Assembly: GCA_027604005.1 (NCBI GenBank)
Contig: JADGJT010000313.1
Span: 1-27,719, forward strand
Length of the DNA: 27,719 nt
DNA from: Dinochytrium kinnereticum
Taxonomy: Eukaryota > Chytridiomycota > Chytridiomycetes > Chytridiales > Chytridiaceae
Direction of reading: 5' to 3'
A model generated the notes under the pieces. The model saw only the letters and a list, made by a program, of their open reading frames with translations. It had not been told where the DNA came from and searched no databases. The translations under genes and the position numbers were made by a program. Positions 541 to 22,841 of the stretch are shown here, piece after piece; the stretch's first letter is position 1; each line of letters starts with the position of its first letter.

Positions 541-2370
541 ATGCCTGCGTCGTCACCGTCGGGGAGGGAGGAAGGGGAGGCGGCGTTGCCACCGCGGGAG
601 GAGGAGGTGCTGGGCAGGGTCGGGAATCAAACTCCGACGGTTGTTGGAGGGGAGGAGGAGCATCAATCGGCTATCCGAACCCGCTCGGCTGGTGGTGGCG
701 GCTCCTTGAGTCGCATTGTCTCATCCATCGCCCTCTCGGCAAAGACCAAAGGATACTCGGCCGTCCCTTTGGAAAGTCTGAAAAGTCAACCCATCTCTCC
801 TATCCATAAACAGGAGTTCCTTCGGTCGTCGCTGAGTGGGTTAGGAAGATGGAGGGTCTTTCGATTGTTGGCCCTCGCGGCATTTTCACTTTTGATTCTT
901 GGACATCTGCTTCTGTTTGGGCAGCCCGCAAACTCCTTGTCGGCTGTGGTGGATGATGATGGAGCGGGGTTGCTGCCCGTGGCTCCTTTGGTAAAGGTTG
1001 GGGATGGTGAGAGTTTAGTGAAAGGTATGTCGTGTTTCTTCCTTTGATGATCCTTTGAGATGTTCAATACCGTCATGCTGGTTTGATATGTGCTTCTTCT
1101 TCTTTTTTTTTTTTTTTTGAGGAACTCCCTATTTTACTTTGCTCTCCAAATAAGAAACTAAACCTCGACCCCACTCTCTTTTCTTACAGAGCAGGAACGT
1201 TCTTCATCCAAACAGAATAATAGAAAGTCATGGCTCATGCGGTTTCTCTTTTCCCAAGAACCTCAGCAAGCTTTAATGCCCACAACGGGACAACCTTCTA
1301 CTCAACCCAAAGAAGACACAACCACCTCGAAGGAACGCCGCCGTCGGTTCTCACCCTTTGGTCCAGCCCCTACCGACTCCAACTCCGCCGTCATTACCCA
1401 CAACTCTTACATCCCTCGAACCGTTCATCTGACCGTCCCGAACAAAAAGTATGTGAGCGGGAGCGTCCAAAATAACATAGAAAGCTGGAGAGCGATGAAC
1501 CCAGACTTCGACGTCATCCTCCATGAAGATGTGGACATGCTTGCGATGGTCGCTGGGGAGGGCGAGAAGACGTTTCCTGGTGCGCTTGCAGTTTACAAGG
1601 GGTTTGCAAAGAACGTGGAGAGGGCCGATTTTTGGAGGTACCTTGTTATATACCTTCGTGGGGGGGTCTATGTTGACAGCGATGTCAATCCTTTAAGGCC
1701 CATTGAGGAGTGGGCGCAGTGGTTTGATGCTGATAAGGCGGAGAAGAGTGAATTTGCAGAGTATGTGGAGATTCACGAAGCTTCAATGGCGGCTCCTTCT
1801 GCAACTTCGTCCCGCAGAAAAGCAAAAACTGGGCGACACTCAAGCACAAACGAAACTTTTTCAGACGTTACATCGTTCTCCACCTCCTCCTTCGACCCCA
1901 ACGTCCTTCAAGGTTTCGTAGGAGCCGAAGCTAACCTCGCTTCAGAAGAAGACCGCATCACCCAAGCCTTTGCCTTCCGCACCCAATGGTGTCAATGGGC
2001 TTTCGCCTTTCGCCCTCATCATCCCTTCCTTCACCTGGTCATAACTTCCATCCTTCAACGTGTTCACGACGAAGCTTCAGGATATATCCACGTGACGGGT
2101 GACTGGAGTTATAATTTGTTGATGAGGACTGGCCCTGGTATTTACACCATGGCTGTCGAGAGGTGGTTGAGGGAGCAGACTATGGGGAGAAGAGATGCGG
2201 GGGTTCTGACGTCTGGGGAGGTTGTGGAGGGTTTTAATGTTGTTGGGAGCGTGGGGTTTATGCCGCCGTATGCTTTTGGACATAGGGCTTGGATGGATCC
2301 TGCGCCGCCTGACGAGAGGATGGTGCTTGTTCAGCATCAGTTTAGTGGATCTTGGAAGAATGGACGGTAG
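541..2370 (+). CDS. Type II membrane glycosyltransferase with DXD motif (OCH1-like, Gly_transf_sug), two exons
   Basis: Exons 541-1024 and 1190-2370 join in phase 1 across an intron with borders GTATGT and TTCTTACAG (1025-1189), giving 554 residues. Residues 1-106 are a low-complexity cytosolic tail, about 107-127 a single hydrophobic anchor, and the lumenal part holds the catalytic domain. YIPRTVHLTVPNK opens it, ERADFWRYLVIYLRGGVY follows, and the metal-binding DXD is D324-S-D326 in YVDSDV. This is the pattern of the OCH1/alpha-1,6-mannosyltransferase-like superfamily that transfers sugars from nucleotide donors in the Golgi; the acceptor cannot be read from sequence. A basic SKQNNRK stretch lies just after the splice. 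Paralogous to the gene at 20621-22841, with which it shares the catalytic core but not the intron position. The start at 541 is the first ATG in frame with the anchor. Family call is firm, exact specificity unknown. Confidence 0.87.
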
Positions 2371-6246: not shown

Positions 6247-8685
6247 TCACAATGGGGTAAACTTGAGGTTTTGAGCAGCACCAGTACCGCTGAACACGTT
6301 CAATCCCAGCAACCCTTCATCGTAGAGCGTTTGGGTCACATTTATGATGGGAGCAGACGATTCGGAAGATCCAAAAAACACCTTGATGTTGGACCCAACG
6401 ACATGGACCTCCAAGTGATAGGTCTCCATGCTGTTGATAGCAGTCCTGAAAATGGCCAGGTTTTGAGTTCCGACAGGGGTAATGGAGAACAACTTGACGA
6501 AATCCCCTCCAGCGTCAATGTTTGCGACGTACCCTCGAGTCGCGTATTCATCTGCACGGAAGACAAGGGCGACGGCTGCATTATCTCCGATAGGAGTAAG
6601 ATCGCCCTCGTATTTAAAGTCACCAGCGGTTTGGCTCGACAGAATAAAGTTATCGCCCCATCCCCGGCCTTGCTTACCGAGAATTGTGTCGATCCAGTTT
6701 CCGTGAACAGGCTGCCATGGCCCGCGGAGGTTGGAAACGAATGGAGAGCACCCCCAGATCTTCGCGAGAGGATAATACTCCAACGACGTCAGTGTGACAT
6801 GTCCGTTAGGTATGTAAACCCCAAATCCAGTGTCCTTACGCTTTGGGAAGATCAAATCCGTTATGGTGGCAGCACCATCATTGCCAAAGACCTCAACATT
6901 GGAGCGATCAACAAACATGTGGAGGCGAACGGTACCGTCAGGACGAGGCGTCATCGGAGCATAGTGAATTGCGGGGAACCATTCCGGGCCTCCACTTGCA
7001 TCTCCAGACTCCCTGCGGTCAACAAACATCCTTTCGGAGCCAACGTCGTAGCCGATAGTAGTCCGACGGCTTCCTCCAACGCGCACATGGATGCCGAATC
7101 TCGAGGCCGTCGCGGAAGTGACGTTAAACTCGGCAATAAGTTCAAACGAATCAGATGACAGCGCGGCCAGAATGTTGGATCGGGGCGCCTTTACGATGAT
7201 ATTCTTCCACATCTGGCCGGGCTGTCGGATATTCTTCATCTCGGCCACGGGCTGTTGCATAACTTGGACCTTTCCGTTCACCGTCTTCAAGGTCAGAACT
7301 CGAGGGATGGTCATCGAACCTCTCCCAGGCCATCCGGTCCATGGAGGCCAGAGAGGGATCCAACTCAAAGCAATCCTGCGGCCGTCGGAAGCAGGAATGT
7401 TGCTCCAGGTCTGGGTTGCATAGAAATCTGTCCCATAGTCGAATGGGACGCGACCTCCATTCGGCTTGAAAACTGTTCCATTGAAGTCACCAATGACATA
7501 GTTCTTACCGCCATCGGTGGCGATGACCCATTTTTCGACGCCCGTCTCGTCAACGTTCAACTTGTAAAGATCCGGACACTCTCCTCCAAGAAGATTGCTC
7601 TTGAGCTTCCATTTCTTTAGATCCTTTGAATGGAAAATCCTTAAGGTGTCGGGACCAACCACCATGACCCAGGTTGAGAGAGGCTCGTGCCAAAAGACTT
7701 TGGGATCGCGGAAGTTGTCGCCATATTCGGTGTTCGGAATAACCGGATTGCCCTTGTACTTTGTCCAGGTGAGGCCTTCATCTGTGCTGTAAGCAAGGCA
7801 TTGCATCTGTGGCATCGCGCATGTGTAGAGGACAATCATGGCGTTGTGTCCAAAGCCGGCGGTGTTGTTGGTGTCAATGACGGCGCTGCCTGACCATATG
7901 TCACCGAGGGAGTCTGGGAAAAGCGCGATAGGGAGATGCTTCCAGTGAACCAGATCAGTGCTGACCGCATGGCCCCAGTGCATGCTGGCCCAGCTGTCTC
8001 CAAAGGGGTTGTATTGATAAAACATGTGGTACTTTCCCTTAAAGTACACAAGGCCGTTGGGGTCGTTCAACCAGCTGCTCTCGGAGGAGAATCCATGTTG
8101 TGGTCGGTAAGTCTCGTCATAGTATCCGTCATCTTTGTCACATGTGACAAGGGCGGGGTCAACCAGGGTATCGCAGGCGGCACCAAGGCAGCCGTTTGGA
8201 CTTGGTATGGGTGTGGATAGGGGAATCGCCACCGTGGCAGTTTCGGTGACAGTGATTGCAGAAAGCTGCTGCTTGCAAGTGACGCAGTCGCCTTCAGGTA
8301 TCATGGTGGGTGGCTCGACAGTCTTGCTCGACTGACCATCAATAGTGTTAACACAAGCTTCATGAACAGGCACGTACAAATACTCAAGAGAAGAAGGGGT
8401 GGACGGAAGGAGGACACCTGGGATGTCCAAGCAACGGGTGGATGGGGCGGCATACCCTACCTTCAGCACAAGGAAGTGAATAGCTGCAAAGGCGGTGGCG
8501 ATGACGGCCAGCAGCACCAATCTGTCGAGCACGGCCGTTCGCCAGAAGGGCCTCCTCGGCGACGCCTGATGAGGGGCTCGATCCTCCGTCGCTTCTCGGC
8601 CGAGCAGAGGCTCACGCTCCTTATCCATCGGGGTGTCAGATGATGGGATGGATGTATGAGATGTTTCAAAATCGCAGTGCAACAT
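6247..8685 (-). CDS. Membrane-anchored GH32 beta-fructosidase (invertase/exo-inulinase/levanase type) with CBM66-like domain
   Basis: One uninterrupted 812-residue frame. Residues 1-50 are a polar tail containing EREPLL, about 51-76 a hydrophobic anchor (type II topology), 80-185 a Ser/Thr/Pro- and Cys-bearing stalk. The GH32 five-bladed propeller begins near 190: WLNDPNG with nucleophile D208, RDP with transition-state stabiliser D327, and ECPD with acid/base E369. A beta-sandwich follows to about 640. Residues 643-812 form an extra domain (GPWQPVHGNW, GDNFILSS, GYVANIDAGGDFVKLF) like CBM66 of bacterial levanases such as SacC. The enzyme should release fructose from sucrose, inulin or levan at a membrane facing the outside or a vacuole lumen. 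Met20 (codon at 8628-8626) is an equally good start and directly precedes the EREPLL tail. It is intronless, unlike its long neighbours, which with the domain layout suggests bacterial origin. Substrate preference is not readable. Confidence 0.96.
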   Translation of the reverse strand: MLHCDFETSHTSIPSSDTPMDKEREPLLGREATEDRAPHQASPRRPFWRTAVLDRLVLLAVIATAFAAIHFLVLKVGYAAPSTRCLDIPGVLLPSTPSSLEYLYVPVHEACVNTIDGQSSKTVEPPTMIPEGDCVTCKQQLSAITVTETATVAIPLSTPIPSPNGCLGAACDTLVDPALVTCDKDDGYYDETYRPQHGFSSESSWLNDPNGLVYFKGKYHMFYQYNPFGDSWASMHWGHAVSTDLVHWKHLPIALFPDSLGDIWSGSAVIDTNNTAGFGHNAMIVLYTCAMPQMQCLAYSTDEGLTWTKYKGNPVIPNTEYGDNFRDPKVFWHEPLSTWVMVVGPDTLRIFHSKDLKKWKLKSNLLGGECPDLYKLNVDETGVEKWVIATDGGKNYVIGDFNGTVFKPNGGRVPFDYGTDFYATQTWSNIPASDGRRIALSWIPLWPPWTGWPGRGSMTIPRVLTLKTVNGKVQVMQQPVAEMKNIRQPGQMWKNIIVKAPRSNILAALSSDSFELIAEFNVTSATASRFGIHVRVGGSRRTTIGYDVGSERMFVDRRESGDASGGPEWFPAIHYAPMTPRPDGTVRLHMFVDRSNVEVFGNDGAATITDLIFPKRKDTGFGVYIPNGHVTLTSLEYYPLAKIWGCSPFVSNLRGPWQPVHGNWIDTILGKQGRGWGDNFILSSQTAGDFKYEGDLTPIGDNAAVALVFRADEYATRGYVANIDAGGDFVKLFSITPVGTQNLAIFRTAINSMETYHLEVHVVGSNIKVFFGSSESSAPIINVTQTLYDEGLLGLNVFSGTGAAQNLKFTPL

Positions 8686-10332
8686 TAAAACTCTGTCAAA
8701 AGTGTGTCAGCAGATTCAATCTCCGCCTTTGGACGCCGTCAAGCGGCACGGGGAGCGACGCCGTCGTCAAGGAAGGACGTCGTCGACGGATGCGGCAGGC
8801 GACCGTCATTCACCCCAACACCATCTGCAGCGGTAGATACGACACTGCAGAGATGCTAATCACTCTGCCCGCTTAATCTTCCACAATCACCCCTCCCTGC
8901 TGAGCTGGCTCCCTGAAGCTGTCATCATCATCGTCATAGCTGGATCATTCGAGAACGCACATAAATCCCTTTTCAAGTGAGTGCCCATCTATAAGCTTTG
9001 GTCATCGCGCGAGATACGGTCTCCATTCCACCTGATACAGAATTTATTATTTTGGCGAGAGTTTTGGTGATAGTCCAGATAACTCGTCTTCATTTGGGAT
9101 TTGAGTAGGGAATCCGCCTTTACCCCGAGTATGTGTTTTCTTTCGAGAGACTGAAAGCTGTGCAGGAGTTATGATTTTCCCGCAAATGAATGCTTATCAT
9201 CAATGTACTGCTGAGTGGCCTTACCACTACTGAAGTCCGGAAGTCGTAGAGGTGGCGTTAATCCTGTAGGCTGCTTTCAAGATTAGGGTGCATTCGAAAG
9301 ATACTTCCTCCGCGTCAATTTCCGTCAGGCGCTTCACTAACCACACACGTCAAAGGATCAAATCACTGGCTTGCATTTTTGTTATTGAGTTCCAGCTCGT
9401 TTTCATCTTCGACCTCTATGAGAATACAATCGATTGCTATATCTGTATGGTATTCTTTGAGACAACTTTGGCTTTTTGCCATAGGCTTTTATCAGAGGGG
9501 TTGAGAATTGCAACTTGACATCAAAACTCAAGTCTCTATACTCCAAAAGCCAATGTGGGTGTAATGCGGTCTAATAGTACTTGAAAAAAGCAGCATCGCA
9601 CAGAAATAATAAACTGGCTAGTGATGCATGTTCAACTCCTGCTGTCCTTGAACATTTACCATGAAGACAATTGAATCTTAAAAGCCTTAACGAATGGTTT
9701 AAAATAGATATTGAGGATTTCAAAGAGGCTGAAATACATTGGTAAAAACGTAAATGTAGAAAGGAAAATAACCAATCTTGAGAATTGCTTGGATTCCAGA
9801 AGAATGTGCTGCTCAGAGCAGTACATTGAAGGCGATTTGAATGTCTAAATCAGAGCGCAGCTGTATGAATAAAGCATTGGCCCAGTGCATCATAAGTATG
9901 GTCGTCTCGCTGCCTTGAATTAGCACGTGAGATTAGAATGGCTGTTTTAAAAATATGTTGATAAAACTATGTGCCTAGAAACATTATAGCGGGTAACTTG
10001 TACAAGATGCTCAAGGGAAAAGTGATATTTGGGAAGATTAAATGCAGGGCTAATAACTTACAAATTCAAAAGCCAGTAGAAAACGCAATAAGAATCGCGA
10101 TTCGTGACAGCTACTTGTAGCAGTAGGAGACACCAATAAAAACGGATACCTCCACTGTGTGCATCATGGGAGTAAGTCCTTTGTTTAATTAAAAAGTTCA
10201 GGAAAGGTAATAGGGGTCACCCCCACGATACGTCTGTTAATCTTCTATTTTTCAGTGCCAACGGGCATTTGAGAATGGGCAGTCGCTCTTTTCAAGAAGT
10301 CCGGTATGTACTATATATATATATATATTCCA
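8686..10332. other. Long intergenic region upstream of the GH32 gene
   Basis: About 1.65 kb containing the GH32 promoter and 5' leader at its left end and the 3' flank of a minus-strand membrane-protein gene at its right end. The first ~250 bases left of 8950 are GC-richer and may be transcribed leader; the rest is AT-rich with frequent stops in all frames. Splice-like signals on the plus strand near 10170-10304 are described among the findings. No tRNA, rRNA or transposase was seen. Confidence 0.5.
10312..10328. repeat. Short TA dinucleotide microsatellite
   Basis: Seventeen bases of strictly alternating T and A, just outside the 3' end of the minus-strand membrane-protein gene (stop at 10335-10333). 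Likely in its 3' untranslated region. Confidence 0.9.
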
Positions 10333-13069
10333 TCAGCCATAGCCAAAAACATTATTTTCTCCCAAGAAGATGATGATAAGAAGATGTACCACAAGGAGGC
10401 ATGCAGCTATCCCGTAGTTTGGCCTGAAGGAGGTTGCTCCGCCGAGAGGGACGCCTTTCCATAGGAATCAAATAATGAGATACATACATTAAGTTTCTGA
10501 ATGGTACTCCCTTTTTGAGGGTAGAAAAGATAACGTAGGATTTGAAAGCAGAGAGAGTAGGAGTAAAAGCCTTAAACCATCTATGAATAAATAAGGTTGA
10601 GCTCACCCTGCATCCATTCTACCGAAACGAATATTAACTCTATCCCAAACTCGACCGCTAAAAAAGATACCGCGAGAGTTCCAAGTCGTCCCGTCTCACC
10701 CATACCCAAAACTAAACTTCCTTTAAGCATAGAAACCGCTGAAGCGGCAGATAAAGTGGATAAATAATTTGAGAATGCGTAGTTATTCCTTTCCATAGAG
10801 TATATATCTAGTACTTGGTCCATGGTTTTTGACATCTTTTCAGAGACTGACGCTACGAACTTCGCATGCGATCTTGCCCGAGTGATATTTAATATCTGAG
10901 GTGTCATTACATCGGAGTTATTTCCATCTCGCGGACCAGCCGCTATAGTAGTTACAGAAAATGCGACCTCCTTGCTTAACTCCTTCGCTACCGGAATGGA
11001 CTCTTCGCTGATAAGCAGGGGCTTAGTCTGAGAATCGTCCTTTGAAATCACAGATCCACTTGATTCGGCAAGCAGATTTGCATCTAAGCTACTCTCAGGA
11101 ATTCTTAACGACTTATGCGTTTGCTCGTTCGAAACCTCATTATGACGCGGAAGAGTTTCCAGAAGGCCTTGTCTTAAGATATAGGGTGGATTAATCTTCA
11201 ATAGTTCTGAGATAGTTTCTTGGCTAGTAGTGTTGAGTTTCCTCAGAATTCCTTTAGGAACCGATTTCACGGCATCATCGTTGTCGTTCGTTATCGTAGA
11301 AACGAGCCCGTCAATATGGCATGCCTCCCTGGGCGAATTAGTATCTGAAAATCCTTTCTGCTCGTATTGCGAAAATGCTTCTTGATTTGGTACCGTTTCC
11401 AGTGTCTCCAGAGCTGAGGTGTGAGCTTCTTCACGCAGCATTCGTCCCTCCGATTTGAATGAATCATTTGGAATCGTTATCGTCGATATCGCCACGAGTG
11501 CATGCCTTCCTGATTTAATAGAACACACGTCCCTTTCATTTGACTGGTTTGAACATCGATCCGGAGACACCTTTGTTTCATTCCTCGACGAAAACTTCTT
11601 TCTCAGGTATTCGTAAATACTTCCGATTCTTGGGATGAGTCGTTCAACTATTATCTGAACACAGCAAAAAGATAGCAAAGGAACTTGAAAGAGACAGATT
11701 ATCAGATTGAGGGAAAAGCTTGATAGCATCCGTCACTTACCAGCATCAAGGGAATCTGCTCTCAGAAAAATAAGGGCCTACAGAGGGTAAATCTTGTCAA
11801 TGCTCGACGATATATATGATATAAGCGGGGGGTGTCAAAATAAGAAGGAAAGAACCCAGACCTTGGTAATCACCTGGCCAGTTAAAAGGACTGAAAGCCG
11901 TAAAAACTGTGAAAGCTCCTTTTGTTCTATGGACCGCTCCTACATGCCTTTTAGAAATATATACATAGACGAGCTAATTGAGGAAAAATTCAAAACGAGT
12001 GATCAGAAGCAAGGGGAGATAGAACAAAGAAAATGACTTGCATATTTTAGGAGATAATATTGAAGAATCAGAACTGCAATATTAAACACAATTTGGATGC
12101 GAATGTTGCCGCCGAGTTGGACTACAAGCTTTGAGGCGAAATTCGTAAGAGGAATCGTGGTTTGCTTTGCTGCCTAAAAAAGGATTTCAGAACAAGTATG
12201 ATATTAGTAAAGACACGGCTCTTGTTTTTTCGCTTCATATGTAGAAAAACAAACCGTTAGGAGCAGCTCTATAACTGTCATCTTTCTGGAATCTTCCAAA
12301 ATACGCATGCTCTCAGTAGAATCATCCGTCTTGTTCACCGCAGCAACAGGTGACTTCCAATCGCATATTATCATATTGTAGATAATGTTGGCTTGACACC
12401 ATGATCGCGATATTAAATTTCAATGCGATACGTTCAGAATATGAGAACTAGACTTACAGATCCAAAATCCCACAACGAAGGCCAGCAGCGTCGCGATTCG
12501 GGATATCTCTTTGAAGTAATATGAAGCTATCATCAGTACCGAAACTTCCACTGCCAACAGTGCTGGTGTTAATGTGAGGCAATGCAATACGATGCCCTTC
12601 CATCCTTTCTGGGAGTGCATTTAAAAAATTATGTTAGCATATCAGCCAAACAAGGGCCGCAAAGGCAATTTAAAACCAAAAAAAAAAGAGGACTTTTATA
12701 AATGGCGACAGGTTGAAGCTTCTAAATAGCAGAAAGCTGTATCTTACAACAATGTATGTATATATGATCATTCCAACCATATCATACAGAATAGACTCGA
12801 AGATAACTGAAAAGCTCGTTATTGTCAAGTTGCATTACTGAAGTCGACTAAAAATCCTCAACATAATTCCGACAAACTTAAAGAGCATCACCTCCCAATG
12901 CGGCTGGGTGAATTTCAATGCCGCCCACACCCCTCTTTGAAAAAAAAAAGATACCATCAACGATGAACCTTGCGAGAAGTGATGCAGGAAGAGCCAAGAT
13001 CACTGAAAGCAGTATCTGCCTAATGTGAAGGATGACAACATGATGCCATTTGTCTGCGTCGGCAGTCAT
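10333..13069 (-). CDS. Multi-pass membrane protein of unknown function, copy A of a divergent pair, nine exons with a possible frameshift
   Basis: Exons (minus): 13069-12892, 12806-12748, 12608-12458, 12391-12255, 12173-12042, 11973-11874, 11777-11741, 11683-10607, 10454-10333. They total 1993 bases, one more than a multiple of three; the surplus falls in exon 6, where the frame leaves in phase 1 but exon 7 must be entered in phase 0. Otherwise about 663 residues. Exons 1-7 encode several hydrophobic segments (for example IVFNIAVLILQYYLL). Exon 8 starts with a membrane segment and ERLIPRI, runs through a hydrophilic Ser/Thr-rich region of roughly 250 residues and ends with YSMERNNYAFSNYLSTL and more membrane segments; exon 9 ends NVFGYG. 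Exon structure and motifs match the gene at 15200-17464. The intron after exon 5 uses a GC donor (GCAAGT). No known family recognised; membrane location is inferred from hydrophobicity. Could be a functional gene with a splice I misjudged, or a young pseudogene. Confidence 0.74.
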
Positions 13070-15199
13070 TACCGCCCAGTGTACAGAGATAAGGCCCTTT
13101 CAGTCGCAAGTTTCTGGCCATATGCCAGGATGGAGTTTTGAGCGGCAATCTTCATTGTTTCGATTGTTTTTAGCCCTGATTTTTAGGGGGGTAGAAAATT
13201 GGTTCATTGCAATAAGCCACCACATCCGTCGGTACTCTGTCACGCGTGAAGTCTTGACCATAACGGCCTGCAGGTTCTGTATCCAAAGTTCTAGAAAAGA
13301 ATGAATAAATGGAGGCCGCCATCTGCCGCAGAACACACAGCGTGCCGCATTACTTGGGAAGAGCCCTCCGAGATACTCATACACCCTCCGCCCAGATCGT
13401 GCCGCCATCGACTTTAGAGTTCTATTGGTTTTGCCTTTGAGAGCCCGGCTCATTTAAAAGCAGTAGTTTGTGAATGCGAAGTGGGCTGACCCTGAATTAG
13501 GCCGCTTTACTTATTGCCTTCTTGCTTTCTGTGCGAATCTGCTCATCCCAGACAGCCCTTGTCTGCGCAGTCAATGGTATCTATACCAAGGTATGTGTTG
13601 GATGCAAGCCCACTTTTGGCCGTTTCTGTAGATGCTTTGTGAACGTGAAAGGGCAGTTGAGTTGCCATTCCCAGGAGGCCTTAAAGTTTTTTTTGTTCAC
13701 CTCAACTCGGCCGAGCTGCTTCCACAAAATATCGATGTGATGGTCCAGGATCATTCTTTTTTCCTCCATCAGCCATCTGAGACTAGGCCTTTGAAATGAA
13801 ATCTGGGAAATGGAGGACATTATCTACGAGCATCCGTGCTTTGACAAGACAGGTATGCCTAGTTCAGCAATTCCTAGTATGTCAAGAAAGATGGGATCGG
13901 CCATGGCTCTCTTGGACGCTGATAACCTTCAATCTTTCGTCATTCCCGTCAATCATCACTCTCGAGGACGTTAGTTATGGGATTTTATTACAAGAGTCTC
14001 GCAAGTGGATCTCTCCAAAATCGAACCTTGTCTTTAAACATTCGCCAAGAGCAAGAAGTAACCTTTGTTAAGAAGCATCTGTTCTCGCACACGGCATAAA
14101 TGAAAAAAAATCCTAATGGGGGACCCACGGCTGGATCTTTGAAGCTTATCGTAAAGAGGGTTCAATATTGCCAGTTTTCGGGTAAACGAGTTTTCAGAGC
14201 AAATGGAAGCGAATTGGTTGTCCTAGTTGAACGATATTCGCTGAAAACCGCTGAAAACCGCAAGAAGCGATTCATTTACTGCGCGGACTGCGGCTCTCGC
14301 AGCTGCTGGTGCATACGCGAAATTCAAAGGGTTGCGTCCCGTAATGAAGGACCTTCGTGTCGATCTGGCCCTGATAACTTTTACGCGGACACTTGGGAGA
14401 TAGGATGTAACGAAGGGTCGTGTGATAGGATAAGGCTGGTGAAGTGGCTGATGAAGGGCTAGTTTAGGAAGCGTTAATTGGGTGAACAGCGGCAAGATGC
14501 TGATTTTGGAGCGGAAGGGGGGGGATAGAGGCAAGTGTAAAAGAGAGAGAATTGTAGGTATGGGGACTCAAGCTGTTGAATTCCCATTGCCCCAACCCCC
14601 GTGCTTTTGGGACATGTTTTGTTAGATACAAGTTGCAATCATCAATGTCGACAAAGAATATATCATTCTAGATTATGAGTCGTTTTTCATGTTAGGCAGT
14701 AGAATACTTGAAGATATCTTTAGTTGTCTCCTCTTTGCATTATCGGCGCCATGGCTCTCTTCTTTTCGATGTTTGATGGAAAAACAGTTCAAAAACCACC
14801 TTTTATTTGAAAGTTGAGGTGTGTTTTTACGAAGCTTTTTACATTCCGTAGTTTAGAACTTTGCTCTAAGGTGATGAGCAACCCCAAGATTACAAGAAGT
14901 ATTTATTTCCCTTCCCAAATCAGAGACTGTGTGGTTGTTTTTTTTTAACATACTTTTACGAAAACGCATAATCCTACCATGTTAAACTAAAACTATATCA
15001 ATACGAAGTTTGTCTTTCTAATGTATACCCGTGGATTTGGTTGATGCTCATATTCACTTGCTTCGGATCTCCATCTCAATGGCGATCCAGGGATCTTCGC
15101 CCAATCATTTTCGCGTCATCCAATGCCAGGTACATTTGCAATGGCAGGGGGAAAGGATGGCCATACTTTCTGAACTTGCGATGTAAATGAGGGTCAATA
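13070..15199. other. Divergent intergenic region between the two membrane-protein paralogues
   Basis: About 2.1 kb between two start codons facing away from each other, so promoters for both copies should lie here. Several short frames occur, notably 13810-13974 (+, 54 residues beginning MEDIIYEHPCFDK) and 14100-14462 (+, 120 residues with a cysteine cluster YCADCGSRSCWC). Neither matches a family I know and neither has clear splice partners. An 11-base direct duplication CGCTGAAAACC occurs near 14238-14260. AT-rich runs around 14940 may be promoter DNA. Confidence 0.45.
14100..14462 (+). CDS. Possible small cysteine-containing protein, doubtful
   Basis: An open frame of 120 residues in the divergent intergenic region. 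It begins MKKNPNGGPTAG, is fairly basic in the middle (AENRKKRF), and carries six cysteines between about residues 60 and 107, including CADCGSRSCWC, which could bind zinc. There is no signal peptide or membrane segment. I recognise no family. The frame could equally be chance open sequence or a decayed remnant: no splice signals link it to neighbours and a minus-strand frame overlaps it. Kept because its composition differs from the surrounding AT-rich DNA. Confidence 0.2.
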   Translation: MKKNPNGGPTAGSLKLIVKRVQYCQFSGKRVFRANGSELVVLVERYSLKTAENRKKRFIYCADCGSRSCWCIREIQRVASRNEGPSCRSGPDNFYADTWEIGCNEGSCDRIRLVKWLMKG

Positions 15200-17464
15200 A
15201 TGACGAAACGTCCTACACGAAGGTGCAGGGTGATATCCGAGATTATAGTCGCTCAGATTCGCTTGCTGGCGATAGCTGTCGTGTTTGTTCTTCCTGCATG
15301 GTTTGCTTCTTGGGCGGCGTTACTTGCATTGGATGCCGTTTCCTTGATGGAGATTTTGGGAGTTGGGAGAATACGTCCTGCGACGCTGGCGGGTGAGATT
15401 TCTCTATGGTCGAATTAAGTTGCTGATCCATCTCATTCTAGTCTTGGGTCATAACATCCCGTTGATGATGATTAAAATGATCGGATATGAATATAGGCTT
15501 GTGAGCCATTTGCTTCAGTTTCTTGGGACGCTCAATGGCGTCAGGCTTGTTTTCTGATGATTAATTCAAGCTGTAGCAAGGTCCATTGGGTGTTTTCTTG
15601 CAATTAGGGAGCACCACCTTGGTGCTGATGGTGATTCAGCTGGCCACTGTTGTTTTAGTATCTACAATGCACATAGAATGGGTGCGTGTAGCCTCAATAA
15701 TAGGTCACTTTTGGGGTAATTACCTAGGTATTAGCTTTTACCAAAGATCTTAAAACTAATCTGAATATACGTACGCCGATAAAGGTGCATTGACTTCGTT
15801 GTTCTGGTTCTTCCTCTTTGGAGATAAAGAGCCTTTGTCGATTGCTTCATTTGGGAACAAAAAGGAGCAAAATGCCTCAATAAAAGGAGATAAGTATACA
15901 TTGATCAGTTTCTTGTCGAGTTATTGTTTCGTGGTAAGCTGCAAAGATATATACACATCTTCTGAACTGAAACACAGGCGACTTCCGCGACATTATCAGT
16001 ATGCATGCTCTATCTCCTGCCAACTGCAGCTATTCAAGTCTCGCTTTCTTCGTTTGTGGCTTTCGTAGCTATCAACCTTTTTCTCCCAATATGTCAGATG
16101 TTTCTTCATTTAGCGGTAGATAAAATGATTGTTCTTTTTTGTTAGTTTTTTTTTTTTTGGTTCAGGCTGAATATTTGCTCTCTTCACGTTTTTTTCAGTT
16201 CCAAAAATTAATATCGCGGGATTTCCACCTGAATACCTATAATAGATGAAGCCCATCACGACGACGGCAAACCAGTGGGTTGTAAAAATGTTTATATTTT
16301 CAGCTGTGCAGTTTCCTACAAAGGTAAGCATGTTGTTGTGGTTTATTTTTCTCTTAAACTGGGTGCAAGTTTTTAAGGTTTTCTCGGCCAATCGACATGA
16401 CAAAAGGTTAGAATTCCAACTATTTATTTTGGTGATTCATCAGAGATTTTTTTTATAGCACCCTTCTGGCTAGGAATTATCAGTCAAGTGATAGGAGATC
16501 GACTTGTTCCAAGAATTGTGAGATACAGCTCAAATGCCAACTGCTATTCTTTCTCCCTGTCTAGAAAGGTTGCCCCAGTGGAAAATGAAAAAACGATCAA
16601 CCGCACGACGCTTCACAAGGCACCTTCTTTAGTTCGACTTGAAGACGGTGGCTCTCCTGTCGACTTTAACCCTACAGGTACGCTGTCAGATGGCGAAACA
16701 GAGAAATTACCTTCCTATCCGGATCATGAACGACTTTCAGACGAAGAAAAGTACGCGGAGGCTGAGACTTATATTACAAGCATCCTCCCTCTGGTGGATG
16801 AGGAGGAAGAAGGAAAAGAATCAAATTTAGAACGAGCTATACCGCCTCCAGTAGGGGTTGATTGCGTAAATGAAGACACATGTCGAGACGAGGTCAGTGA
16901 CCCAGTTCTCACAAAATCCCCACCAACACTTCGCACTCCCAACCGGAGGCAAACCACGATTCGTTCGATACCTCAACTGAAAAGATTCACAACTCGAGCC
17001 ATCACGGTGATATCAAAAGCGGTTGATACGGTTTCTCTAGCGTATTCGATGGGAAGAAACGATTTGAGTCTGTCGAATTATATGTCAACGCTTTTTGGTT
17101 TCACTTGCACGCTTTTACCTAATGCTTATGGAGGATCGTTTAATGATAATCGTTATGGGGGAGAGGGAAGGCATGGCGGCTCGAGGTGGAAAGAACCGCT
17201 TTGGTTGTATGCTGCCATGCTGAGTATGGACTTCTTCATTGAAGCGGTGTTTGTGTATATTGAGAGTTGTTTTGGTAAGAACTGAAGAGATAACTAATAT
17301 TATGCTATTCTTTCGCCTCTAACAACGATTTGTTTTTTGTAGATACTCCAGTTGGAGGTCTTCGAACGTTTCACTGGACAGACTTTCACATCTTACCCTG
17401 GGGAATGGTGATGAATTTTCTTTGTGCGTATGCGGCTGCTCATACACTTTTTGGGTTTGGGTAA
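15200..17464 (+). CDS. Multi-pass membrane protein of unknown function, copy B of a divergent pair, nine exons
   Basis: Exons: 15200-15392, 15442-15500, 15577-15715, 15785-15933, 15978-16115, 16246-16323, 16370-16406, 16459-17274, 17343-17464. They total 1731 bases, 576 residues, open throughout with consistent phases. Starts MTKRPTRRC, with a first membrane segment LLAIAVVFVLPAWFASWAAL, then further hydrophobic segments in exons 2-7. Exon 8 opens APFWLGIISQVIGDRLVPRI, followed by an acidic hydrophilic loop (about residues 285-450, with DEEEEGKE), then YSMGRNDLSLSNYMSTL and two membrane segments; exon 9 (TDFHILPWGMVMNFLCAYAA) ends in GFG. Membrane segments flanking one large, fast-evolving hydrophilic loop suggest a channel, transporter or receptor-like protein, but no signature of a known class is visible. 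The 44-base intron 5 is very short. Exon 6's acceptor (AATAG at 16241-16245) is the weakest junction. Divergent partner is the gene at 10333-13069. Confidence 0.8.
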
Positions 17465-20620: not shown

Positions 20621-22841
20621 ATGACGGACGAGGCAACTCCGCCGAGTCGTCCACACAGCGACGACGCCCCACGCCCCCTGCCGCCGTCCTCTCCGCCGTC
20701 GCCCCTTCCTCCCTGCATCCGCGAGAGGACAGAGCAGCACCATCCGCCGCCCACAGGAACCGCACCCACCGCCGCGTCAACACCAGCACCACCACGCTGT
20801 CCCCGTCAAACACTCCTCCTCACCCCCTTCACAATCCACGCCAAGTCCCAGACAGCGATCCACCCCCGCTCGCCCTCCTTCCGGAAGAAGCTCGCTCAGA
20901 CGGTCCAGCAGCGACGCGGCGGTTCCACTGGGTGGGCCTCTGACGGCGGGTTTTGGGGGAGACGCGGGTTGACGTTTGCTTCCAAGGGCATGACGGGGAG
21001 AAAGAGGGGTCGTGTGGTGCTTTTTGGGTGTGGGGTTGGAGTGCTGATCGTGCTGCTGTTTGGCCATTTATGGCTTATGGGGGTTGGGAGGTTTGTGGGT
21101 GTGGGGGGGGTCAGGGGGTTTGGGGAGTTTGCGGGGAAGGGCGTTCAGGGTGTGGTTGTTGAGAGGGTTGATCAGAGTGGGGTTGGGGATCGTGAGGTTT
21201 CTATGGAGGAGGTGTTGAAGTGGAGTCAAAGGATTCGGGTTCCAAACTTTCCTTTTGCTTCTTCTTCCTCTTCGCAGACGCGAGAGGGTGATGAGAAGGT
21301 TGAAGTGGATGAAGGTGGTGGGAAGGCAGAAGAGGTGAGAATTAAGGATGAGATGGGGATTGTGAAGGAGGAGGACATTTCACCACCTTTTTCTATTGAT
21401 TCTGATGAGATTGTGAAGGGGGATGGGGGGAATGTGAAGCTTGATCCGAGATTGAACCCTTTTGCGCCAGAGAAAAGAAAAGACTCTCATGCGGGGTCGT
21501 TGAGGGGGCGTTTGGATGTGGACGATCTCAAGCATCGGTACTTTATTCCAAGGACCATTCATATCACGGTTCCTAACAAGGTTTGGCCTTTTGCTCTACT
21601 GACGTTATGAATGAACCCCCCGTTTATGATCCAACGGATTTCCTTAATCACTCCTCCATTCTCTTGTTTAGTTCCTTCTTGATATGACGACAACCAACAT
21701 TGTAGAGAAATGGAAGTCGCTCAACCCGGGCTTCACTATCCACCTCTACGACGACGACGACATGCGTGACCTAGTAAAACAGGTCTCAACCCCCTCAAAC
21801 GCATCTTCAGCACCTGCAGAATTTCCGACCGCTCTCGAAGTCTACGACTCTTTCGAACGATCCGTCGAAAAAGCCGACTTTTGGCGGTACCTCATCATCT
21901 ACCTCAAAGGTGGGGTCTATATCGACAGCGACGTGGCCCCACTTCAGCCAATCGACACTTGGTCCGACGCTTTTGACCCATATGTTGTTCGACGAGCCGT
22001 GAAAGAAGGGTACGGCGGTCCACATCAATTCCGTGACAACGGCCCGCCTGCGAATGCGCCACTGCTACAGGGATTCGTTGGGATGGAAGGGTACGTGAAG
22101 AGTGATTATGAGAGAATGAGAAGGGGGTTCACGTCAAAGATTCAATTCTGTCAATGGGCGTTTGCGTTTCGAAAAGGACACCCTTTCCTCTCAAGTGTCA
22201 TACTGAGGATCTTGGATGAAGTTGGTGCTGAGAGGAGACATTGGAGAGCCTCTCCTGAGGCGCTTGAGGGATGGCGGATGGGGGTTTTGCAGAGGACTGG
22301 ACCGGGGGTTTGGTCGAGAGCTGTTGAGGCTTGGATGAAAGAGTATGGGTGGGTGAAAGGACGGACACCTTTGGGATGGGTTTCGTGGTTGTTTCATCGG
22401 TATCCTCGTGGCTCACGCAGTCGCGTCACATCAGGCGACATCATCCAGCAGTATGAGATTGTGAACACTGTTGGGTTGATGCCGGTTCATGCGTTTGCCC
22501 ATGGTGATGAACCACAAGGGCCTAGGTCCATTTCTGAAGAGCATGTGTTGATTCGACACCTTTTTAGAGGATCTTGGAAGGAGGATGATGGGTTGGATGG
22601 GTGGATTCGGACGGATAAGGAGATTGCTGAAGGGGGTAGGGAGGGACTTCGAAATGCCTTTGGGGTGACGGTTTCTGAAGATGCTTTGAAGGGGGTTATG
22701 GGAGGGGTGTGGCCGCCGCCGAAGATTGAGGCGGGGTCCGTCGTTGGGCTGATGAGGGGTGGAGCCATGAATGATAGAGGTGAGGAGGGGGAAGGGTATG
22801 GGGACACAAAGAATGAAGGGCTGTCTCGGAAGGGTGTTTAG
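20621..22841 (+). CDS. Type II membrane glycosyltransferase with DXD motif, second paralogue, two exons
   Basis: Exons 20621-21580 and 21672-22841 join in phase 0 across a 91-base intron (GTTTGG to TTGTTTAG) that splits VPNK from FLLDMTTTN; 709 residues. A Pro/Ser/Thr-rich tail (1-125) precedes one hydrophobic anchor at about 131-153 and an acidic stem (160-300). The catalytic domain starts YFIPRTIHITVPNK and has KADFWRYLIIYLKGGVYIDSDV with D405-S-D407 as the metal-binding DXD. FCQWAFAFRKGHPFL and the late NTVGLMPVHAFAHG and LIRHLFRGSWK also occur in the gene at 541-2370. Golgi sugar transfer is the expected role; acceptor unknown. The frame is open back to an ATG at 20531, but that would place 30 residues in AT-rich DNA only 84 bases after the SDR stop, so 20621 is preferred. 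The C-terminal ~90 residues extend past the paralogue's end and are unassigned. Confidence 0.87.

Follow-up and report, generated by a model that had tools for sequence, protein, structure and literature searches.

The contig of the aquatic chytrid Dinochytrium kinnereticum studied here, C313 (NCBI GenBank JADGJT010000313.1; the window, 27,719 nucleotides at its full length), carries two genes on opposite strands, called minus and plus, which stand head-to-head. We found that both belong to the same old multigene family, whose products are polytopic membrane proteins and which comprises at least ten genes in the D. kinnereticum genome (assembly GCA_027604005.1; 22.4 Mb, 558 contigs): the two window genes, six further close members and two distant ones. 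The family grew via dispersed and local duplication, lost at least one copy and retains most of its introns. It also appears to be conserved as protein, despite core identities of just 15-52% between members. Our best reading is a birth-and-death family of long standing, observed to date in this genome only, and it appears to be unnamed as far as our searches reach. A first-pass annotation of the window had already described the two genes as paralogous membrane proteins of nine exons each with no recognised family, and this we can substantiate. Its further proposal, that the genes go back to an inverted duplication and were retained as a divergent, possibly co-regulated pair, is not borne out.

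Two head-to-head genes with a common exon plan

The gene models are as follows.

15200..17464, plus strand: plus gene (GenBank HDU67_005793 / P0001), 580 amino acids, nine exons
15200-15392, 15442-15500, 15577-15727, 15785-15933, 15978-16115, 16246-16323, 16370-16406, 16459-17274, 17343-17464, plus strand: exons of the plus gene, hand model
16459..17274, plus strand: exon 8 of the plus gene, with DRLVPRI, a hydrophilic loop and then the YSMGRNDLSLSNYMS signature
10333..13069, minus strand: minus gene, 652 amino acids, nine exons; hand model, in part recovered by spliced alignment
13069-12892, 12806-12748, 12608-12458, 12391-12255, 12173-12042, 11939-11874, 11777-11741, 11683-10607, 10454-10333, minus strand: exons of the minus gene
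10607..11683, minus strand: exon 8 of the minus gene, with ERLIPRI, a longer hydrophilic loop and then the YSMERNNYAFSNYLS signature

The hand-built plus model agrees letter for letter with the GenBank protein P0001/HDU67_005793 of D. kinnereticum, which is labelled a hypothetical protein without family or function. The exon lengths are 193, 59, 151, 149, 138, 78, 37, 816 and 122 bases in plus and 178, 59, 151, 137, 132, 66, 37, 1077 and 122 bases in minus, and the intron phases are 1,0,1,0,0,0,1,1 in both genes (8/8 agree). The matching phases had been recognised before with the sixth left as x, which now resolves to 0. The three equal exon lengths reported earlier (59, 37 and 122) all hold, and the count rises to four with 151: the GenBank protein demands that exon 3 of plus ends at 15727 and not at 15685, which gives 151 bases in both genes. 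Exon 8 with its hydrophilic loop differs in length (1077 bases in minus, 816 in plus), as had been stated, and intron 5 of minus, after exon 12173-12042, has a GC donor (gcaagt).

The two proteins are directly recognisable as paralogs by blastp (expect values, E, of 1e-10 and 2e-9 with 21% and 29% identity) and by phmmer (E 1.5e-14), in both cases against a one-sequence database and with a plus model whose exon 3 ended at 15685. The plus protein, spliced-aligned to minus DNA, reached a score of 191, whereas none of 20 shuffled proteins exceeded 62 and the reversed protein scored 62. In this direction the spliced aligner recovered exons 2, 7 and 9 unaided, placed exons 3-6 with an error at one border or at both, and split exon 8 by a false intron. 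With the minus protein on plus DNA it recovered exons 2 and 4 along with the 3' border of exon 1 and the 5' border of exon 3; exons 5, 7 and 9 were not recovered. Because this automatic recovery is partial, the nine-exon claim rests on the hand models and GenBank. On this footing we conclude that the nine-exon plan common to both genes is real, its splice sites being predicted.

The family across the genome

Exon-by-exon tblastn searches of the assembly with single-member queries gave paralog sites on contigs C85, C17 (two), C139, C83, C39, C31 and C219. Only the best candidates were scored, so that the family count is a lower bound. Five of the six further close members are apparently complete, one (C17a) was found without exons 1-2, and most are dispersed. 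The best E values between different loci are weak for C39 (8e-5, to C17), C31 (4e-4) and C219 (2e-4). These links are weak singly. In a one-profile hhalign search the distant C31 and C219 matched the eight close members with a probability of 97% (E 5e-11, 244 columns), with the caveat that their rough models were partly derived from family alignments. The two C17 copies (locus L017) are arranged head-to-tail. Exons 1-2 of the upstream copy, C17a, were not found in the 1454 bases upstream, and this copy may be truncated. In C31 (L051), exons 6 and 7 are seemingly fused (115 = 78+37).

The six close paralogs were modelled with a purpose-written, homology-guided spliced aligner, which furnished the following exon lengths.

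C85, spliced model: 172, 59, 151, 137, 138, 78, 37, 474, 122
C83, spliced model: 166, 59, 151, 143, 138, 81, 37, 645, 122
C39, spliced model: 166, 59, 151, 143, 144, 75, 37, 774, 122
C17b, spliced model: 250, 59, 151, 119, 138, 81, 34, 606, 122
C139, spliced model: 205, 210, 134, 210, 37, 918, 122
C17a, spliced model without exons 1-2: 148, 164, 138, 78, 34, 561, 122

The eight close models contain 60 introns, which fall at eight common sites of the alignment. Three introns deviate slightly: intron 4 is shifted by one column in minus and in C139, and intron 5 of C39 by three. The last exon has 122 bases in all eight. C139 is without introns 2 and 5 (210 = 59+151; the second 210 is compatible with 132+78). 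These positions are common to the eight members despite a core identity of just 15-52%. Judged from the predicted models, the gene plan is strikingly stable across an old family.

One may object that open frames were simply stitched into similar shapes. The paralog models do come from an aligner that favours equal exon lengths: it requires GT/GC-AG and penalises gaps, so that site consensus and equal lengths are partly built in. Several borders of the window genes were also misplaced when only the other gene was given, and some models were unstable, those of C139, C17a and C17b varying between modelling rounds (the later versions are used here). However, although regularity is partly built into the aligner, the GenBank plus model and the shuffle controls are independent of that. 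In four loci the plus protein scored 158-347 in spliced alignment, whereas 20 shuffles per locus stayed at or below 70 and the reversed protein at or below 62. None of the eight models has an internal stop, which is weak alone, as the aligner cannot place stops. We consider an artefact of this kind extremely improbable.

History of the pair

A maximum-likelihood tree of the ten members (598 of 833 columns) groups plus with C85, minus with C139 and C17a with C17b (100/99 each) and C31 with C219 (100/100). The terminal branches are long (median 1.16), which makes the deeper branching order tentative. Plus and minus as sisters are 48.9 log units worse and are rejected by the approximately unbiased (AU) test (p-AU 4e-5). 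Under this model, neither gene thus arose by duplication into the other after the subfamilies parted. A group of plus, minus and C139 is rejected as well (p 0.005). Together with the closer paralogs elsewhere, the sister test shows that the pair is not the product of a simple inverted duplication.

This weighs against the earlier idea that an old inverted duplication was retained as a divergent pair, possibly under common regulation. The two genes do stand head-to-head and 2130 bases apart, in line with the shared 2.1 kb given in the first-pass annotation, and a group of plus, minus, C85 and C139 survives the test (p-AU 0.26). Yet besides the rejected sisterhood, the nearest paralogs, C85 and C139, lie on other contigs, and no other head-to-head pair was seen, the opposite strands of four loci (L016-L019) being at noise level. 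Among the genome search matches there is no second copy on the same contig other than in C17, where it is head-to-tail. For co-regulation from the intergenic DNA nothing was found in support: words shared upstream of 7 genes (400 bases each; 8- and 9-mers included) were not above shuffles, and the best 7-mer, ATCCAAT, was present in 5/7 upstream stretches, with at least 5 also reached in 12/60 shuffled sets. We therefore hold a retained divergent pair to be decidedly unlikely. From the tree, an old pair whose copies later dispersed is possible. Plus and minus are two of the more distant close members, and their head-to-head placement is probably incidental.

The window also contains a relic and the intergenic DNA that separates the two start codons.

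10051..10176, minus strand: relic, stretch resembling exon 3, interrupted by two in-frame stops (one TAG, one TGA) and carrying a donor-like GTAAGT
9822..9926, minus strand: relic, exon-5-like stretch, in correct order after the exon-3-like stretch
13070..15199, no strand: intergenic DNA, 2130 bases between both start codons

The relic follows the minus gene closely on its 3' side and has the same orientation, hence head-to-tail. Its exon-3-like stretch matches the minus protein by tblastn at E 7e-7 within 1633 bases (21/42 identical, 50%) and at E 6e-4 genome-wide, and its exon-5-like stretch does so at E 3e-4 (13/35 identical). When seven members were tried against the relic, the minus protein alone matched at E 1. 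The comparison of relic and minus gene at the DNA level by blastn was not significant (best E 0.17, 49/73 bases), and the case consequently rests on the protein-level matches. We read the relic as a decayed tandem copy, putatively a ninth close copy, which would make the window a three-copy cluster. In the intergenic DNA no further family copy was found: four members scored 33.5-49.5 on both strands, compared to 34-44 for four controls and at most 70 for shuffled proteins elsewhere. The same DNA holds a 120-amino-acid open frame (14100-14462, plus strand) with paired cysteines (YCADCGSRSCWC); it matches nothing in Pfam, and our genome search did not turn up a second copy.

Protein features and searches for identity

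Over 28 pairs, the mean identity is 22% (15-46%) in the N-terminal core, 19% (10-31%) in the loop and 27% (18-52%) at the C-terminus. In 6/6 pairs examined, identity by codon position peaks at position 2 and is lowest at position 3 (plus/C85: 0.44, 0.56, 0.36), a pattern that would be compatible with purifying selection, alignment by protein favouring the same order. Invariant in seven aligned members are, in plus numbering, Q204, Q224, Q252, R283, P286, R287, P308, Y464, R468, N469, S478, E530, E537, P543 and G545; of these, Q224, R283 and P286 fall to 7/8 once C39 is included. The pattern Y-x3-RN-[DN]-x3-[SA]-x2-[LMV]-S, itself derived from these proteins, occurs in 8/8 close members and in 0/16000 shuffles. 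A hydrophilic loop of 79-281 residues leads from the PR motif to this signature, and the Y-x3-RN-[DN] signature precedes the last three predicted helices. Hydropathy and two low-confidence AlphaFold models (about 9-11 helices; inputs were P0001 alone and P0001 with three stretches of the minus gene) suggest about 11 helices in total, eight ahead of the loop and three behind the signature, with an amphipathic helix that runs from the loop up to the signature. The loop charges are compatible with an inner N-terminus, except for the loop between transmembrane helices (TM) 3 and 4.

For the two window proteins, Pfam gave no family at E 10. Among all ten members scanned, none matched Pfam above the cut-off, the weak matches being four among seven members (best E 0.09) and one at E 8 among the other three. 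NCBIfam gave nothing above the cut-off for seven members (best E 0.037, one member), and the PDB sequences gave four weak matches (best E 0.38), all at profile positions 302-418. Searches of the protein database, in which the 7995 and 7994 candidates with the most shared words were scored, returned the plus protein alone, and a hybrid query with 1142 candidates returned none. This hybrid query missed the plus protein, though phmmer with the same consensus gives plus E 1e-17 at that database size, and the searches returned none of the genome's own paralogs. Since known members were missed, the protein database search is weak evidence for the absence of outside homologs. Prokaryote and viral contigs, screened with six short peptide patterns each, yielded nothing related to P0001; the approach is sensitive to close relatives only. 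The family is not described among the literature matches listed (titles and abstract starts, with few subscription journals covered).

Proposed mechanism and alternatives

The explanation we prefer for the whole is an old multigene membrane family with a sensor or channel mechanism, which is well within reach though short of an even chance. That the members are sensor or channel proteins, which we infer and favour over transporters, is in itself a tentative assignment. An N-inside bundle of about eight helices would be followed by a cytosolic, probably disordered loop of highly variable length. Next would come an amphipathic helix that carries the Y-x3-RN-[DN] signature, and finally three helices in which two glutamates are invariant. 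Each copy would act as a surface or endomembrane sensor or channel, with a small ligand or ion bound or conducted by the helix bundle. The signature helix would couple the bundle to the fast-evolving loop, and regulation or signalling may reside in that loop. That plus and minus stand head-to-head would be incidental, or would be left over from an old cluster.

Several observations speak against this proposal. The basic TM3-TM4 loop violates the positive-inside rule, and helices 7-9 are weak in hydropathy. The AlphaFold models have a mean predicted local distance difference test (pLDDT) of 41.9 and 49.1 and a predicted template modelling score (pTM) of 0.27-0.28, which makes helix count and fold provisional. 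Profile and Foldseek searches had been suggested in the first-pass annotation as a check. The profiles yielded no family above cut-off, as described above, and Foldseek against the PDB, with these poor models (pLDDT 42-49), found nothing better than E 2.5, so that no fold can be named. Bitter taste receptor chains are among the 14 chains listed (E at least 2.5), which is no evidence, and an Orco-like chain is not among them. Finally, the conserved glutamines and glutamates in the predicted helices would suit a transporter equally well as a channel. A transporter or permease family, with solutes carried by the bundle, a regulatory loop and a substrate range widened by duplication, is indeed a possible alternative, and one that we treat as just as tentative. 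It agrees with about 11 predicted helices and with strongly conserved polar residues in them (Q204, Q224, Q252, E530 and E537), and it accounts for the same family facts. However, hhalign detected no internal repeat when TM1-4, TM5-8 and the C-terminal part were compared (probability 0.1-0.6%), and the lack of any Pfam match above cut-off in the ten members also counts against it.

The proteins could also be highly diverged offshoots of the seven-transmembrane ion channel superfamily (insect Or/Gr, GRL, DUF3537, PHTF). The insect Or/Gr are chemoreceptor birth-and-death families with deep divergence, tandem and dispersed copies, relics and retained introns. In a general comparison, the Dinochytrium family resembles them in its deep divergence, its tandem and dispersed copies, its relic copy and its retained introns, whereas it has just about ten genes. 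A probable cytosolic N-terminus, inner loops predicted to be longer than outer ones and a long variable loop would fit such channels, and there is a chytrid precedent: one candidate GRL each is reported in two Spizellomyces chytrids, SpunGRL1 and SpalGRL1 (PMC7746228). Like our family as predicted, these are orphan polytopic chytrid proteins with a probable inner N-terminus and long inner loops (PMC7746228). Unlike them, the Dinochytrium family has more predicted helices, is without the TM7 motif and shows no sequence link that we could find, and the one candidate per Spizellomyces species stands against at least ten genes in Dinochytrium (PMC7746228). About 11 helices, not seven, are predicted, although from weak models. 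The TM7 motif (T/S)Yhhhhh(Q/K/E)(F/L/M), called diagnostic but not definitive for seven-transmembrane ion channels (PMC7746228), is present in 0/8 proteins under both a strict and a loose reading of h. Pfam 7tm_7 and DUF3537 match none of the ten members. A genome profile search gave a single sub-threshold 7tm_7 match on another contig (C452, E 0.09) and none for DUF3537, which carries little weight, since neither search gave a signal in any control genome. Membership in this superfamily is therefore very unlikely.

Neighbourhood of the pair

Outside the family region, 41 window open frames were compared with seven family loci, and no shared neighbour was found at E 1e-4. Three open frames of the window could be assigned to known families.

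1162-2370, plus strand: DXD sugar-binding glycosyltransferase open frame (Gly_transf_sug, E 2e-13)
21672-22841, plus strand: DXD sugar-binding glycosyltransferase open frame (Gly_transf_sug, E 4e-14)
6247-8706, minus strand: invertase-like member of glycosyl hydrolase family 32 (E 1e-76), encoded in one long open frame

The two Gly_transf_sug frames flank the region about 19 kb apart and are possibly mutual duplicates. In the glycosyl hydrolase frame, a hydrophobic stretch near the N-terminus looks like a membrane anchor.

Significance

To our knowledge, how chytrid zoospores sense their surroundings is poorly understood. One may speculate that the family provides chytrid-specific environmental receptors or ligand-gated channels with a new fold, with different copies for each zoospore or thallus stage and an origin independent of G-protein-coupled receptors and insect-type receptors, an extension that we regard as unlikely. 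An unnamed, expanded membrane family marked by a sharp signature and by conservation of its gene plan would be a concrete candidate set for chytrid sensing. Plain searches weaken at about 20% identity, where the exon plan together with the signature may offer a simple route to relatives in other chytrids.

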